Below, piece by piece: positions 3,308 to 7,227 of a DNA stretch of 64,000 nt. Location: assembly GCF_030503435.1 (NCBI RefSeq), contig NZ_JAUKPO010000038.1, positions 1 to 64,000 of the forward strand, read 5' to 3'. The notes below the pieces were generated by a model. That model saw nothing but the letters and a program-made list of their open reading frames with translations, was not told the origin of the DNA and ran no database searches. This DNA comes from Rhodocytophaga aerolata (lineage in GTDB: Bacteria > Bacteroidota > Bacteroidia > Cytophagales > 172606-1). Each line of letters starts with the position of its first letter. Positions within the stretch are counted from its first letter, which is position 1. Both the position numbers and the translations under genes were made by a program.

Positions 3308-3341
3308 TTTGTAGGGACTTTCTATTTTTTTTATACCTTTG
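3308..3341 (+). promoter_or_regulatory. Bacteroidota-type promoter of the TPP riboswitch operon
   Basis: TTTG at 3308-3311 and TACCTTTG at 3334-3341 match the -33 (TTTG) and -7 (TAnnTTTG) consensus of Bacteroidota primary sigma factor promoters, separated by 22 bases. Transcription would start around 3348, exactly at the first base-paired strand of the riboswitch. The position agreement makes this one of the better promoter calls in the window. Confidence 0.75.
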
Positions 3342-3346
3342 CCAAC

Positions 3347-3429
3347 ATTACACGGGGTGCTTAACCAAACGTTAGGCTGAGAACATACCCGGAACCTGAT
3401 CTGGATAATGCCAGCGTAGGAATTGTAAG
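3347..3429 (+). promoter_or_regulatory. TPP (thiamine pyrophosphate) riboswitch, THI element
   Basis: The THI-box core is present in order: CGGGGTGC (3353-3360), GGCTGAGAA (3375-3383), ACCCGGAACCTGATCTGGAT (3387-3406) and AATGCCAGCGTAGG (3407-3420). The closing P1 helix can form between TTACA (3348-3352) and TGTAA (3424-3428). The element binds thiamine pyrophosphate and normally lowers expression. The 83 bases from P1 to the ATG at 3513 form the expression platform; GTAAG (3425-3429) in the 3' P1 strand can pair alternatively with CTTAC (3474-3478). No clear T-tract terminator is seen, so control of translation initiation is the likelier mode (inference). Confidence 0.95.
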
Positions 3430-3512
3430 GCTATTTGCATGTCTTTCTGGGCTTTTCTGCCCCTCCCTATCTGCTTACCTGGTCAGGCGTTTACTAACCC
3501 AAACTACCTGAT

Positions 3513-4238
3513 ATGAGCAATCTGGAAAAACAAAATTTTCAACTTATCACCCAGAATTTACGGAAATGGCAAGGCCGCGAAGAGTGGTTTTTCAACAGAG
3601 ACCACACCGATACCTATGAACTATGGTACGAAGGCAGATACAAACGGGCCGAAATCTGGCAAAAGAAAACCATAGCACAACTCCTTAAGAAAGATCCACG
3701 GGTGCGTACCTTACTTGAGTTTGGCTGTGGTACCACCAGATTTACCAGGTGGTGGCATCAACTAGGTATTGAAGCCAGCGGAGCTGATCTTTCACCGTTT
3801 ATGCTTGGCCAGGGCGTACATCTGTTTGAAGGTGACCTGGTGCTGGCAGATGCCCATTATATGCCTTTTAAAGACCATACCTTCGATGCATTGGCCTTTA
3901 TTACCACTTTCGAATATTATAAAGATCCGGTTAAGGTAATCCGGGAAGCTGTGCGGGTGGCCAAATATGGAGTGGTATTTGGCATGATGAACCGGAATTC
4001 CCCTAAAGTAGCCAGAAGGCGGGTGCAGCAACTATTCGGAAAAAATCCTTTTTATGTGACCGCCACCTTTTATACACCTTCCAAACTTACCGCACTCATT
4101 GAAGAGGCCTTGCAGGGAAGAAAGTATACGCTGGAATGGATGGCTACAGGCTTGCCTGAATGGTTTCCAGTGCAGCAATGGAAGGTACCCTACGGCGATT
4201 TTTTTGGGTTGTACGTAAAATTAACCGATGTACAATGA
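3513..4238 (+). CDS. Class I SAM-dependent methyltransferase (UbiE-like)
   Basis: First gene behind the TPP riboswitch. Residues about 66-85 carry motif I of Rossmann methyltransferases (TLLEFGCGTTRFTRWW), followed by an acidic strand end (ASGADLSPFML) and motif II/III-like ALAFITTFEYYKDP and VIREAVRVAKYGVVFGMM. At 241 residues it fits the methyltransferase-11/UbiE group. A long N-terminal helix region (RKWQGREEWFFNRD) precedes the domain. The stop codon overlaps the next start (ATGA at 4235-4238), so it is translationally coupled to the PurM-like gene. A Trm112-like protein encoded three genes later could be its partner. The substrate is unknown; thiamine-related chemistry is inferred only from the riboswitch. 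Confidence 0.85.
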   Translation: MSNLEKQNFQLITQNLRKWQGREEWFFNRDHTDTYELWYEGRYKRAEIWQKKTIAQLLKKDPRVRTLLEFGCGTTRFTRWWHQLGIEASGADLSPFMLGQGVHLFEGDLVLADAHYMPFKDHTFDALAFITTFEYYKDPVKVIREAVRVAKYGVVFGMMNRNSPKVARRRVQQLFGKNPFYVTATFYTPSKLTALIEEALQGRKYTLEWMATGLPEWFPVQQWKVPYGDFFGLYVKLTDVQ

Positions 4239-5299
4239 GTGCGTTCACCGATACTTCCGGAAAAATAGGCAGCAAGTTGTTTAAAGAAATGCTGCTGCCT
4301 AAATGCGGAGCCTCCCGTAGAGAAGTGCTAACCGGGCCTGGTTTCGGTGTAGATACTGCTGTTATTGAGCTAGGAAACGGGCTGGCAATGGCTGTTTCCA
4401 GTGATCCTCTTTCCCTGATTCCCTCCATTGGAATGGAAGCCTCTGCCTGGCTATCCGTACACTTGCTAGCCAACGATATGGCCACTACCGGATTAGCCCC
4501 TATGTATGCCCAATTTGTGTTAAATCTGCCAACGGAGCTCTCTGCCCGGTCTTTTAAAGAATATTGGGAGTACATTCATCTTTTTTGTAAAAAGATTGGT
4601 GTATCCATATCCGGTGGGCATACCGGCCAAATAGAAGGGATGCACTCGACTATTTCAGGGGGCGGTACCATGTTTTTAGTAGCGCCTACGCACCGCATCC
4701 TTACCTCTACCCGTGCCCAGCCGGGAGATGCATTGGTGGTAACTAAACAAAGTGCACTTACCGCATCGGCTATTTTGGCCATGAGTTTTCCTAAAACGGT
4801 TAAAAATAAAGCCGGCACCGAAATTTACCTGAAAGCCTGCGAGAGTTTTTATCAGACTTCCTCTCTGGCCGATGCCCTGGCAGCAAGCGAACGGCTGGAA
4901 CCAAACAGCCAGTTAAAAGCTATGCACGATGTAACGGAAGGAGGGGTTGTTGGAGCTATCTGCGAAATGGCCATGGCTTCTGGTTGTGGATTCAGAATTG
5001 ATGATGCTAAACTTCCGGTTAGTGAAGTGCAAAAGCAAATCTGCCGCCTGTTCGACATTGACTACCGCTTTGCCGTAGGTGCCGGTGCCATGATTATGGC
5101 GGTAAAAAAAGGACTGGAATCTGAGCTGACGGCTCATCTGCACAGCAAATCCATTCCAGCAGTGGTTGTTGGTGAGATGACACCAGCAGAAGAGGGCTTT
5201 GTGCTAATAAAGAATGGAGAAGCCAGCCATATACACGTGGATGAAAAAGATCCGTATTGGGAAGCTTTTTTTAAGGCTATAAAAGCAGGGTTAACATGA
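4235..5299 (+). CDS. AIR synthase/HypE/ThiL superfamily protein (PurM-like)
   Basis: A 354-residue PurM-superfamily ATP-binding protein. Visible landmarks are GFGVDTAVIE and SSDPLSLI (N-terminal nucleotide/Mg region), ANDMATTGLAPMY, SGGHTGQ, and in the C-terminal domain HDVTEGGVVGAICEMA, the form used by HypE, SelD and ThiL relatives. HypE's C-terminal cysteine tail is absent (the protein ends AIKAGLT) and no hydrogenase genes are near, so a HypE role is unlikely. ThiL, thiamine-phosphate kinase, belongs to the same superfamily, and the TPP riboswitch suggests a kinase acting on a thiamine-related compound, but this is inference. The start is set by the 4-base ATGA overlap with the methyltransferase; the stop overlaps the next start in the same way. 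Confidence 0.82.
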   Translation: MSAFTDTSGKIGSKLFKEMLLPKCGASRREVLTGPGFGVDTAVIELGNGLAMAVSSDPLSLIPSIGMEASAWLSVHLLANDMATTGLAPMYAQFVLNLPTELSARSFKEYWEYIHLFCKKIGVSISGGHTGQIEGMHSTISGGGTMFLVAPTHRILTSTRAQPGDALVVTKQSALTASAILAMSFPKTVKNKAGTEIYLKACESFYQTSSLADALAASERLEPNSQLKAMHDVTEGGVVGAICEMAMASGCGFRIDDAKLPVSEVQKQICRLFDIDYRFAVGAGAMIMAVKKGLESELTAHLHSKSIPAVVVGEMTPAEEGFVLIKNGEASHIHVDEKDPYWEAFFKAIKAGLT

Positions 5300-5946
5300 G
5301 CACACTTCCTGTCATTACCGGTGGTATTTATCTGGTCTTAAATCCGGATATACCCCGGCTTATACTGCTCAACAAACTGGAACAAGCGCTGGAAGGAGGA
5401 GTAGACATATTGCAACTCTGGAACAACTGGCCGGCATCGTATACTTACCAGGATAAGATCAAGTTGATCGAATCGGTAGCTCACCTGGCTGCGGCTTATC
5501 AGGTACCTTTGCTGATCAACGAAGAATGGCAATTGATCAGAGATACCCCACTTTCCGGCGTACATTTTGACCGGATACCCCAGAATTATGAACAAATAAA
5601 ATCCCAGATTGGCAGAAAGTTTATGGCAGGTATCACCTGTGGTAATGATCTGCAGGTTATTCGCTGGGCGGATAAAAACCAACTGGATTATGTTTCCTTT
5701 TGCTCCGTGTTTCCTTCAACCTCTGTCCAAAGTTGTGAGCTGGTAGATCCACAGACTATTCATAAGGCCAGAGAAATTACCCGGATGCCCATCTTTCTTT
5801 CCGGAGGAATCAAGCTGGATACTATACACAAGCTGAAAGAATATGATTTTGCTGGAATAGCCCTTATCTCCGGAATAGTAAATGCAGACAATCCTAAACA
5901 AACCACTATTCAGTATAAACACGCCTTAACCAATCTTACTCTATGA
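5296..5946 (+). CDS. Divergent thiamine phosphate synthase / TenI-like TIM barrel
   Basis: A 216-residue TIM-barrel protein of the ThiE/TenI family. It keeps the phosphate-binding end of the barrel (LSGGIKL and ALISGIVNA, equivalent to the GGI and VSAI segments) and the segment DYVSFCSVFPSTS corresponding to the YVgfGpVFpTxT strand. The diphosphate-binding QLRxK segment of true ThiE is replaced by LQLWNN, and HLGQxD becomes HFDRIP. This argues against ordinary thiamine phosphate synthase activity and leaves a TenI-like thiazole tautomerase or a new reaction as options. It is coupled by ATGA overlaps to both neighbours in the riboswitch operon. Confidence 0.78.
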   Translation: MSTLPVITGGIYLVLNPDIPRLILLNKLEQALEGGVDILQLWNNWPASYTYQDKIKLIESVAHLAAAYQVPLLINEEWQLIRDTPLSGVHFDRIPQNYEQIKSQIGRKFMAGITCGNDLQVIRWADKNQLDYVSFCSVFPSTSVQSCELVDPQTIHKAREITRMPIFLSGGIKLDTIHKLKEYDFAGIALISGIVNADNPKQTTIQYKHALTNLTL

Positions 5947-6215
5947 AACTCGCCTTAGCCGAAAAATTATGCTGCCCCGTAGACAAGCATGCCCTGAATT
6001 TAAAAATATTCCGCACCGATAGTGAAGATAATCTGATAGAGGGAATCTTTACCTGTCCGCTTTGCCGGAGGTACTATCCAGTGGTATATGGCGTTCCGGT
6101 CATGACACCGGATGAATACCGGGAAAAAACGTTGGAAGAGCCTATGTTACTAAAATGGGGAGTACAGCCAGATTTGGAAAATCCTACGCGTTTCTTGTTG
6201 AAAGAGAAAGAATAG
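5943..6215 (+). CDS. Trm112-like zinc-ribbon protein
   Basis: A 90-residue protein with the Trm112/YcaR layout: KLCCPVDKHAL near the N-terminus, a short variable insert, then FTCPLCRRYYPVVYGVPVM. The second cysteine of the first knuckle is replaced by Asp (CPVD), but adjacent Cys10-Cys11 may compensate. Trm112 proteins in eukaryotes and archaea bind and activate SAM methyltransferases; bacterial relatives often lie beside methyltransferase genes. Here a methyltransferase is in the same operon, so a partner role is plausible (inference). It overlaps the ThiE-like gene by ATGA. Confidence 0.8.
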   Translation: MKLALAEKLCCPVDKHALNLKIFRTDSEDNLIEGIFTCPLCRRYYPVVYGVPVMTPDEYREKTLEEPMLLKWGVQPDLENPTRFLLKEKE

Positions 6216-6297
6216 AACCCCTGCATTCGAAGCTGGCTGTATGGCATTGCCAGATAAATCCGTATATTTTTGGCAGAATGTACAAGCAAGCAAACCT

Positions 6298-7227
6298 ATG
6301 CGTAAACTAGTCTTAATGGATCACGATGGAGGCGTTGATGACCTGCTCTCCCAGTTATTGCTGCTGACCATGCAGGAAATAGAATTGCTAGGCATTACGG
6401 TAACACCGGCAGATTGTTTTATTGAGCCTGCATTGGAATCTAGTTACAAACTTTTACAGGTCACGCAGAAAGAACATATTCCGTTGGGCAGGGGAGAGTA
6501 TTATGGCATCAATGCGTTTCCCAGTGAATGGCGGGCAAGACCAGAGGTAATTAACGCCCTTCCCATGCTGATTAATCTGCCCCGGGCTCCTGATCCATAT
6601 ACCTACCCGGCGGCTGTTGATCTGATAGTGAAGAAGCTGATGCAGGCTTCCGGTACGGTGCAAATACTGTTAACCGGTCCTTGTTCTAACCTGGTGTTTG
6701 CCCTGGAGAAGCAACCTGAGCTGAAAAATAAAATTGCCCAGGTCGTGTGGATGGCTGGTGCTTTTGATGTGCCTGGCAATGTACAAACCTATCAGCATAA
6801 TGGAACGGCCGAGTGGAATGCTTTCTGGGACCCTATAAGTACACAGAAGTTGGTAGCCCTGCAACTGCCCCTGGTATTTGTTCCTCTGGATGTAACCAAT
6901 CATGTGCCGGTAACTAAATCCTTTCTTTCCCGATTAGCCGCACAGCTATCTTATCCACTGTCTCATTTAGCCGGCCAGATGTGGGCCATGACCATTGATA
7001 CTATTCCCAGTTACCACTATGTGTATTATATGTGGGATATATTAGCTACCAGTTTTCTGCTGATTCCACAGGCGTTTACGACTAAACCAGTTCAGGTTAA
7101 CGTAAGTACCAGGCCACCCAATGCCGGCCAGACTTATGTAGATGAACATGGATGGACAGCAACCAGGGTAACAGGTGTGGATATAGCCTCATTTTATGAA
7201 TTTATTCTTACCCAGTTTAAGAAATAA
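6298..7227 (+). CDS. Nucleoside hydrolase (IunH-like)
   Basis: The N-terminal MDHDGGVDD is the DxDxxxDD calcium/ribose-binding signature of inosine-uridine preferring nucleoside hydrolases. TGPCSNLVFAL, VWMAGAF, AEWNAFWDP and VPLDVTNHVP follow in family order. In the C-terminal active-site segment the usual HD pair reads WD (YYMWDILATS), so the leaving-group acid His is Trp here. The start at ATG 6298 gives a normal family N-terminus and 309 residues; an ATG at 6241 would add 19. It is the last gene of the TPP-riboswitch operon by spacing. The substrate may be a modified N-glycoside rather than a standard nucleoside (inference). Confidence 0.85.
   Translation: MRKLVLMDHDGGVDDLLSQLLLLTMQEIELLGITVTPADCFIEPALESSYKLLQVTQKEHIPLGRGEYYGINAFPSEWRARPEVINALPMLINLPRAPDPYTYPAAVDLIVKKLMQASGTVQILLTGPCSNLVFALEKQPELKNKIAQVVWMAGAFDVPGNVQTYQHNGTAEWNAFWDPISTQKLVALQLPLVFVPLDVTNHVPVTKSFLSRLAAQLSYPLSHLAGQMWAMTIDTIPSYHYVYYMWDILATSFLLIPQAFTTKPVQVNVSTRPPNAGQTYVDEHGWTATRVTGVDIASFYEFILTQFKK

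Follow-up and report, generated by a model that had tools for sequence, protein, structure and literature searches.

A four-gene operon behind a TPP riboswitch

The window analysed here is a 64,000-nt stretch of Rhodocytophaga aerolata DNA (contig NZ_JAUKPO010000038.1, forward strand) in which a thiamine pyrophosphate (TPP) riboswitch precedes four tightly coupled genes, encoding an S-adenosylmethionine (SAM) methyltransferase, a PurM-like protein, a ThiE-like protein, and a Trm112-like zinc ribbon. The operon contains no standard vitamin B1 enzyme; it may represent an as yet undescribed means of recovering or remaking the vitamin. The features, all on the + strand, are as follows.

3308-3341, +, Bacteroidota-type promoter read in the window sequence (-33 TTTG at 3308-3311, -7 TACCTTTG at 3334-3341)
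3343-3440, +, TPP riboswitch aptamer RF00059 (67.3 bits, gathering score 54.3, model positions 1-105 of 105)
3513-4238, +, class I SAM methyltransferase, 241 aa (PF08241, E 1.3e-15)
4235-5299, +, PurM/HypE/ThiL-superfamily protein, 354 aa (PF02769, E 4.4e-21; PF00586, E 5.3e-10)
5296-5946, +, ThiE/TenI-fold protein, 216 aa (PF02581, E 3.1e-30)
5943-6215, +, Trm112-like zinc ribbon, 90 aa (PF03966, 26.4 bits, cut-off 22)
6241-7227, +, nucleoside hydrolase, a downstream passenger outside the conserved unit (PF01156, E 5.9e-48)

The aptamer, which is one of two Rfam matches above the gathering score in the window, is full length and confirms the TPP riboswitch that a preliminary description of this DNA had proposed. 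That description had also seen five coupled genes; four of them stand, joined by ATGA overlaps at all three junctions (4235-4238, 5296-5299, and 5943-5946), whereas the nucleoside hydrolase gene follows the zinc ribbon gene after a gap of 25 bases with no overlap.

Relatives of the operon were sought in an order sample of 194 genomes (host included), queried with the ThiE-like protein, and in a contig collection scanned with a methyltransferase alignment. The first search returned close ThiE-like relatives in 10 more genomes (E <= 3.4e-48; next matches 1.9e-15 or weaker), with all four genes in the same order at 8 of the 10 loci and the contigs of the other two (L043 and L044) beginning within the operon. 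The second gave 285 stretches, 223 of them encoding relatives; the counts below refer to the best 80 of these, weaker relatives lying outside them, and two of the 80 (L047 and L120), whose contigs equal those of L036 and L039 of the order sample in length, are taken to be the same loci as these. The order methyltransferase, PurM-like, ThiE-like, zinc ribbon on one strand recurs at 79 of these 80 loci, the last (L100) being cut by its contig. A scan of the same collection with the ThiE-like protein alone gave 32 stretches, none of which was confirmed. Carrier genera include Pontibacter, Mucilaginibacter, Algoriphagus, Chryseobacterium, Pedobacter, Runella, and others.

The riboswitch is conserved along with the genes. 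A covariance model derived from seven riboswitches (six of this operon plus the host's second), preferred to a regular expression that failed to detect the aptamer core at 32 of the 80 loci, found a single match upstream of the methyltransferase gene at every one of the 80 scan loci, which had been selected via protein and not via riboswitch, and one in the window. In the order sample the riboswitch lies ahead of the operon at 7 of 10 loci; L043 and L044 are contig-cut, although a contig-end stretch of the L044 genome (L162) carries the operon front with its riboswitch, and L042 is discussed below. To the question raised in the preliminary description, whether the gene set stays behind a TPP riboswitch in other Bacteroidota, the answer is yes with L042 as the sole exception, and the conservation of gene order and riboswitch is far beyond chance. 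With respect to control, TTTG/TAnnTTTG is what we take to be the Bacteroidota-type promoter consensus, applied here to 3308-3341, and a TAnnTTTG or TAnnTTAG box occurs within 45 bases upstream of the aptamer at 46 of 81 loci, a count without a chance control. A hairpin with four or more T behind it lies between aptamer and first gene at 46 of 81 loci, whereas ten shuffles of the letters gave 7.8 of 81 on average; a terminator-type OFF switch fits these 46 loci. In the window itself, no terminator-like hairpin was detected between aptamer and gene, and a scan of the window for sigma-70 promoters and terminators performed no better than on shuffled sequence.

The nucleoside hydrolase is ruled out as a fifth member of the operon, being absent from all 80 scan loci (E <= 1e-3) and all 10 order-sample loci (E <= 1e-4). 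The idea of an N-glycoside substrate, also part of the preliminary description, is unsupported because this enzyme does not belong to the operon. The predicted protein has an N-terminal extension ahead of the motif DHDGGVDD, and its reading frame might instead begin at 6298.

No other family regularly adjoins the operon among the 80 scan loci: the commonest neighbour family occurs at 22 of them, within 1.5 kb in 8 and there always on the opposite strand, and other neighbour clusters reach at most 8 loci each. The simplest reading of this survey is that the operon is a self-contained unit. Three of its proteins show correlated divergence, with Spearman coefficients of 0.42-0.64 between the divergences of the methyltransferase, PurM-like, and ThiE-like proteins (label-permutation maximum 0.19), for which shared descent alone would suffice. 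Conservation is highest in the methyltransferase: over 40 sequences, pairwise identity averages 79% for this protein, 54% for the PurM-like protein, and 44% for the ThiE-like one.

Among the individual neighbours, one gene family starts 112-114 bases past the zinc-ribbon match on the same strand in seven loci including L094, where its member (L094:12723-13730) is a tRNA-dihydrouridine synthase (PF01207). At L042 (L042:2487-6602), the methyltransferase gene lies 24 bases downstream of the end of a dihydroorotase gene (NF006688, 622.7 bits). The window also encodes a PhzF-family protein at 1335-2252 (PF02567, E 1.3e-47).

Thiamine genes and thiamine uptake in carrier genomes

No match to ThiC was found in the host genome. 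Its ThiG match is partial (24.2 bits against a cut-off of 23, profile 126-207 of 247, E 7.2e-5; a full ThiG scores about 350), as is its best match to the ThiD family PF08543 (51.7 bits against 27, profile 102-225 of 246; a full ThiD scores about 285-326), and both are read as related folds. The absence of standard thiamine genes claimed by the preliminary description therefore extends from the operon to the host genome for ThiC and for full-length ThiG and ThiD (ThiS and ThiH were not searched). The only PF02581 match above the cut-off in the host, the genome in which a second ThiE was sought, is the operon's own protein. The possibility that the operon is one half of a split ordinary thiamine operon was rejected, given that the searches of the host found neither ThiC nor a full ThiG or ThiD and that the operon lacks regular neighbours.

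Across the order sample, ThiC occurs in 0 of 11 carriers versus 56 of 183 other genomes (one-sided Fisher p 0.021) and ThiG at E < 1e-100 in 0 of 11 versus 55 of 183 (p 0.023); weak partial ThiG matches, many of them exceeding the low Pfam cut-off, are seen both with and without the operon and were left uncounted. In a phylum sample, the ThiE-like clade was found in 13 of 395 genomes (E <= 1.2e-81; next best 4.9e-30), this protein being the sole criterion for a carrier here; in G459 and G464 the match contains stop codons; ThiC is present in 0 of these 13 versus 138 of 382 others (p 0.0034, a value that, like the two above, ignores the relatedness of genomes). ThiC is thus missing from all 21 carriers of the two samples together. 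Of the 80 scan-locus genomes, 44, several of them metagenome-assembled, were searched for ThiC, and four (those of L056, L058, L102, and L113) have it, so complete mutual exclusion of operon and ThiC was rejected; as to whether the gene set tracks thiC and thiG, a check named in the preliminary description, it goes with their absence in the samples. ThiD at E < 1e-80 is found in 1 of the 21 carriers (G433) and in 2 of 3 comparison non-carriers, and thiamine pyrophosphokinase (PF04263) in 13 of the 21 carriers and none of the 3 non-carriers (G004, G024, and G040). The eight carriers without PF04263 include the host, but because the three non-carriers are also without it, this absence says little about the operon. 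One of them, G004, from the host's own genus and with an estimated completeness of 100%, yielded no ThiE-like protein (E <= 1e-5), ThiC, or PF04263 pyrophosphokinase.

The host has two TPP riboswitches, the second of which precedes a TonB-dependent receptor. In the 32 carrier genomes searched (17 from the order and phylum samples and 15 from the scan), TPP-riboswitch matches number 1 to 5 per genome at E <= 0.001 and exceed the cut-off in 31. Twenty stretches at such matches, all from order- or phylum-sample carriers, were examined; the next gene is of the TonB-receptor type in 14 of them, from 14 carriers, 12 matching the beta-barrel PF00593 and two (L161 and L174, the latter with a riboswitch of 50.5 bits, under the cut-off) the plug domain. 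Of the others, L162 is the operon itself, and L169-L173 have low-scoring riboswitch matches, four under the cut-off and L171 at 54.3 bits; the match in L169 precedes a PnuC-family transporter (PF04973), and nothing recognisable was found downstream in the remaining four. The B. thetaiotaomicron counterparts of the receptor and the transporter are OMthi and PnuT (PMC5613172). In one stretch (L157:304-3651), the TPP riboswitch and TonB receptor are followed directly by a gene for an NMT1/THI5-like protein (PF09084), which suggests uptake or use of a pyrimidine precursor.

The encoded proteins

The ThiE-like protein is no ordinary ThiE, in agreement with the preliminary description. It falls short of the ThiE equivalog TIGR00693 (103.1 versus 145.1 bits) and of the TenI equivalog NF005819 (42 versus 251 bits), although it shares the fold of ThiE (PDB 1g67/2tps) and TenI (1yad). 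Residues were mapped by aligning 51 rows with Bacillus subtilis ThiE (11 from alignment A3 and 40 from A9, the window protein being counted in both and L036 and L047 being an identical locus). Five ThiE residues, Arg59, Lys61, Asp93, Asp112, and Lys159, which we take to be those binding pyrophosphate (PPi) and Mg, are kept in 0 of 51 rows. At position 59 stands Trp (49 rows) or Tyr (2); at 61 Asn (28), His (20), Gly (2), or Arg (1); at 93 Asn (26), Glu (22), then Gln, Arg, and His; at 112 Pro (44), with seven others, one being Glu; and at 159 Ala (26), Val (15), Ser (8), then Asn and Thr. On the other hand, two residues presumably acting on the thiazole-phosphate side are retained, Gly188 in 51 of 51 rows and Ser209 in 50, as are Gln57 in 51 and Asn92 in 49; Ser130 is replaced by Thr in all 51. 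As a control, 18 of 20 ThiE-family frames from loci of the same order (L017-L035) keep all five PPi/Mg residues, the exceptions being a TenI-looking protein in L025 and a second, probably spurious, frame in L033. Unlike ThiE and TenI, the operon protein has an invariant Asp92, Cys136, and Cys147, the two cysteines being invariant in all 11 rows of A3 and all 40 of A9.

The PurM-like protein shares the fold of HypE, ThiL, SelD, and PurM but lies under every family cut-off: 78.3 versus 184.15 bits for the ThiL equivalog TIGR01379, 68.4 versus 251.6 bits for the HypE equivalog TIGR02124, and under the SelD cut-off as well. Its structure model is good (predicted local distance difference test, pLDDT, 90.9), and among the 50 Foldseek matches listed the nearest structures are HypE, the five best having template-modelling (TM) scores of 0.70-0.81 by query length and all HypE entries 0.63-0.81, followed by SelD (0.62-0.72) and ThiL (0.60-0.67). 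HypE ends in a terminal Cys; no C-terminal Cys is present in the 9 rows of alignment A2. Asp40, Asp57, and Asp81 are invariant in 40 sequences, and we assume that they lie in the nucleotide site; the protein is presumably ATP-dependent.

The zinc ribbon has four invariant cysteines (Cys10, Cys11, Cys38, and Cys41 in alignment A4) and reaches the cut-off of the Trm112 family PF03966 but not that of the narrower equivalog NF038101 (54.1 versus 77 bits). At E <= 1e-3 it has just two relatives of solved structure, 6zxw_H, titled 'Uncharacterized protein' and which we take to be an archaeal Trm112, and 6f5z_C, titled 'UPF0434 family protein', whose entry title is that of a Haloferax volcanii Trm112-Hvo_0019 complex. 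The structure model of the methyltransferase is weak (pLDDT 66), and its matches serve as leads only; the Hvo_0019 chains of 6f5z stand at ranks 4 and 5, behind two 1vlm chains and one 3l8d chain. By sequence, the methyltransferase has eight matches, the best being 1vlm (1.3e-9), with human BUD23 at 1.5e-5 and 2.9e-5. Because both proteins match the partners of the Hvo_0019-Trm112 complex, the methyltransferase and the zinc ribbon may form a two-subunit Trm112-type enzyme. Each partner of the Haloferax pair, in which Hvo_0019 is called just a putative methyltransferase by the PDB title, thus has a homologue in the operon, whereas the pair described here is bacterial and co-encoded behind a TPP riboswitch.

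Discussion

A riboswitch-led unit, found in mostly ThiC-less genomes that also carry a TPP-linked TonB receptor, points to a supply of thiamine other than by a ThiE joining hydroxymethylpyrimidine (HMP) and thiazole. Salvage or repair of a thiamine-type compound, as proposed in the preliminary description, remains the best reading: quite possibly, though we hold this tentatively, the operon is repressed by TPP and supplies thiamine or TPP in bacteria that mostly import the vitamin. This ranks first because the ThiE-like protein has kept its phosphate side, which suggests a thiamine- or thiazole-phosphate-like compound, and because of the chemistry of the PurM superfamily, whose members activate a formyl, amide, or carbamoyl oxygen or phosphorylate thiamine monophosphate (TMP).

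In such a scheme, a drop in TPP would let the riboswitch permit expression of the operon, together with that of the TonB receptor under the second TPP riboswitch. The methyltransferase with its Trm112-like partner, acting as one two-subunit enzyme, would methylate a small molecule; the PurM/HypE-like protein would spend ATP on activating either a phosphate or a formyl, amide, or carbamoyl oxygen; and the ThiE-like barrel, its thiazole-phosphate side kept and the residues holding HMP pyrophosphate (HMP-PP) lost, would act with its two cysteines on a thiamine-phosphate- or thiazole-phosphate-like intermediate. We infer this order of steps, and thiamine or TMP as the product. It is possible, though somewhat doubtful, that the operon is a new branch of vitamin B1 metabolism in which the methyltransferase pair, an activating PurM/HypE-type enzyme dependent on ATP, and a remodelled ThiE barrel carrying two cysteines jointly produce or regenerate thiamine phosphate, starting from a compound outside the known pathways. 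PurM itself drives the ring closure of its N-formyl substrate with ATP, and one conceivable chemistry by analogy would be an ATP-driven closure of ring-opened N-formyl thiamine.

Several observations weigh against this proposal. Its substrate and product are predictions, and the match of the methyltransferase to Hvo_0019 comes from a weak model. The known pairs of Trm112 and a methyltransferase act mostly on tRNA, rRNA, and proteins, not on small molecules. At L042, the upstream region is uncut and carries no TPP riboswitch. The four scan carriers with ThiC imply that the operon does not simply replace de novo synthesis, the Fisher tests treat related genomes as independent, and the 13 carriers with a PF04263 pyrophosphokinase could use imported thiamine without the operon.

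The next explanation, which we consider unlikely, is an undescribed route to thiamine or one of its halves that is independent of ThiC and ThiG, in which the PurM-like protein would close a ring with ATP, as PurM does, the methyltransferase would methylate, and the ThiE-like protein would make the last bond differently. TPP riboswitches also stand ahead of biosynthesis operons, the carriers searched are mostly without ThiC, ThiG, and ThiD, and the host has no other PF02581 protein over the cut-off, all of which would suit such a route. However, four proteins seem too few for a complete synthesis, and ThiC is kept in 4 of 44 scan carriers. Among leaf bacteria, ThiC was reported in all 21 thiamine prototrophs (100%) and in 7% of the 14 auxotrophs (PMC9666465). 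No ThiC-free prototroph was thus encountered in that study, a mild argument against such a route being common, and the operon status of its strains is not stated; the operon-carrying leaf strains Leaf176 and Leaf394 have 0 occurrences in its main text.

It is quite unlikely that the methyltransferase-Trm112 pair modifies tRNA, rRNA, or protein and that the operon responds to a lack of TPP without itself supplying it. The resemblance of the methyltransferase to Hvo_0019 and human BUD23 and the work of Trm112 partners on the translation apparatus would agree with this, but proteins of ThiE fold and of ThiL/HypE fold stand alongside in 79 of 80 loci, and, to our knowledge, TPP riboswitches govern thiamine supply genes in the known cases.

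Very unlikely, too, is an ordinary ThiE and ThiL that make and phosphorylate TMP from salvaged HMP and thiazole, accompanied by two passenger genes. These are the best family names of the two proteins, and the host has no further PF02581 match over the cut-off; both proteins nevertheless stay below the curated cut-offs (103.1 versus 145.1 and 78.3 versus 184.15 bits), the five PPi/Mg residues present in 18 of 20 control frames are found in 0 of 51 rows, ThiD at E < 1e-80 is absent in 20 of 21 carriers, and the methyltransferase, being better conserved than the PurM-like and ThiE-like proteins, does not behave as a passenger. The identification as canonical ThiE and ThiL was rejected on cut-offs and residues. 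Finally, the detoxification or production of a bacimethrin-like thiamine antivitamin via the nucleoside hydrolase and the methyltransferase is highly improbable, for although bacimethrin synthesis uses a nucleoside-cleaving enzyme and a methyltransferase, the hydrolase is found in 0 of 80 relatives, none of the five proteins matches a thymidylate synthase or thiaminase family, and an identical gene order across many genera is unlike an antibiotic cluster.

Among known operons, those nearest to this one are the B. thetaiotaomicron units thiSEGCHF-tenI, OMthi, and pnuT-tnr3 (PMC5613172), with which it shares a TPP riboswitch in front, a thiamine context, and, elsewhere in the genome, a second TPP riboswitch ahead of a TonB receptor. 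It differs from these Bacteroidetes operons, as named in PMC5613172, in being without thiC, thiG, and thiD, in a ThiE-like protein devoid of the PPi/Mg residues, and in a methyltransferase and a Trm112-like protein not named there. The preliminary description had also raised the possibility that the gene set is a fragment of a larger operon of ordinary thiamine genes, which the lack of regular neighbours and of ThiC in the host speaks against. The operon is undescribed in the open-access literature searched by titles and the beginnings of abstracts, and may have been mentioned earlier in older subscription papers on thiamine regulons.

A survey restricted to known genes would label the carriers without ThiC, which are most of those searched, plain thiamine auxotrophs. 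Should the operon indeed yield thiamine from a damaged form or a precursor, the vitamin needs of these bacteria, and what they exchange with others, would change. In addition, the operon provides what is likely a bacterial methyltransferase of two parts, one of them Trm112-like, in a metabolic context that can be tested.

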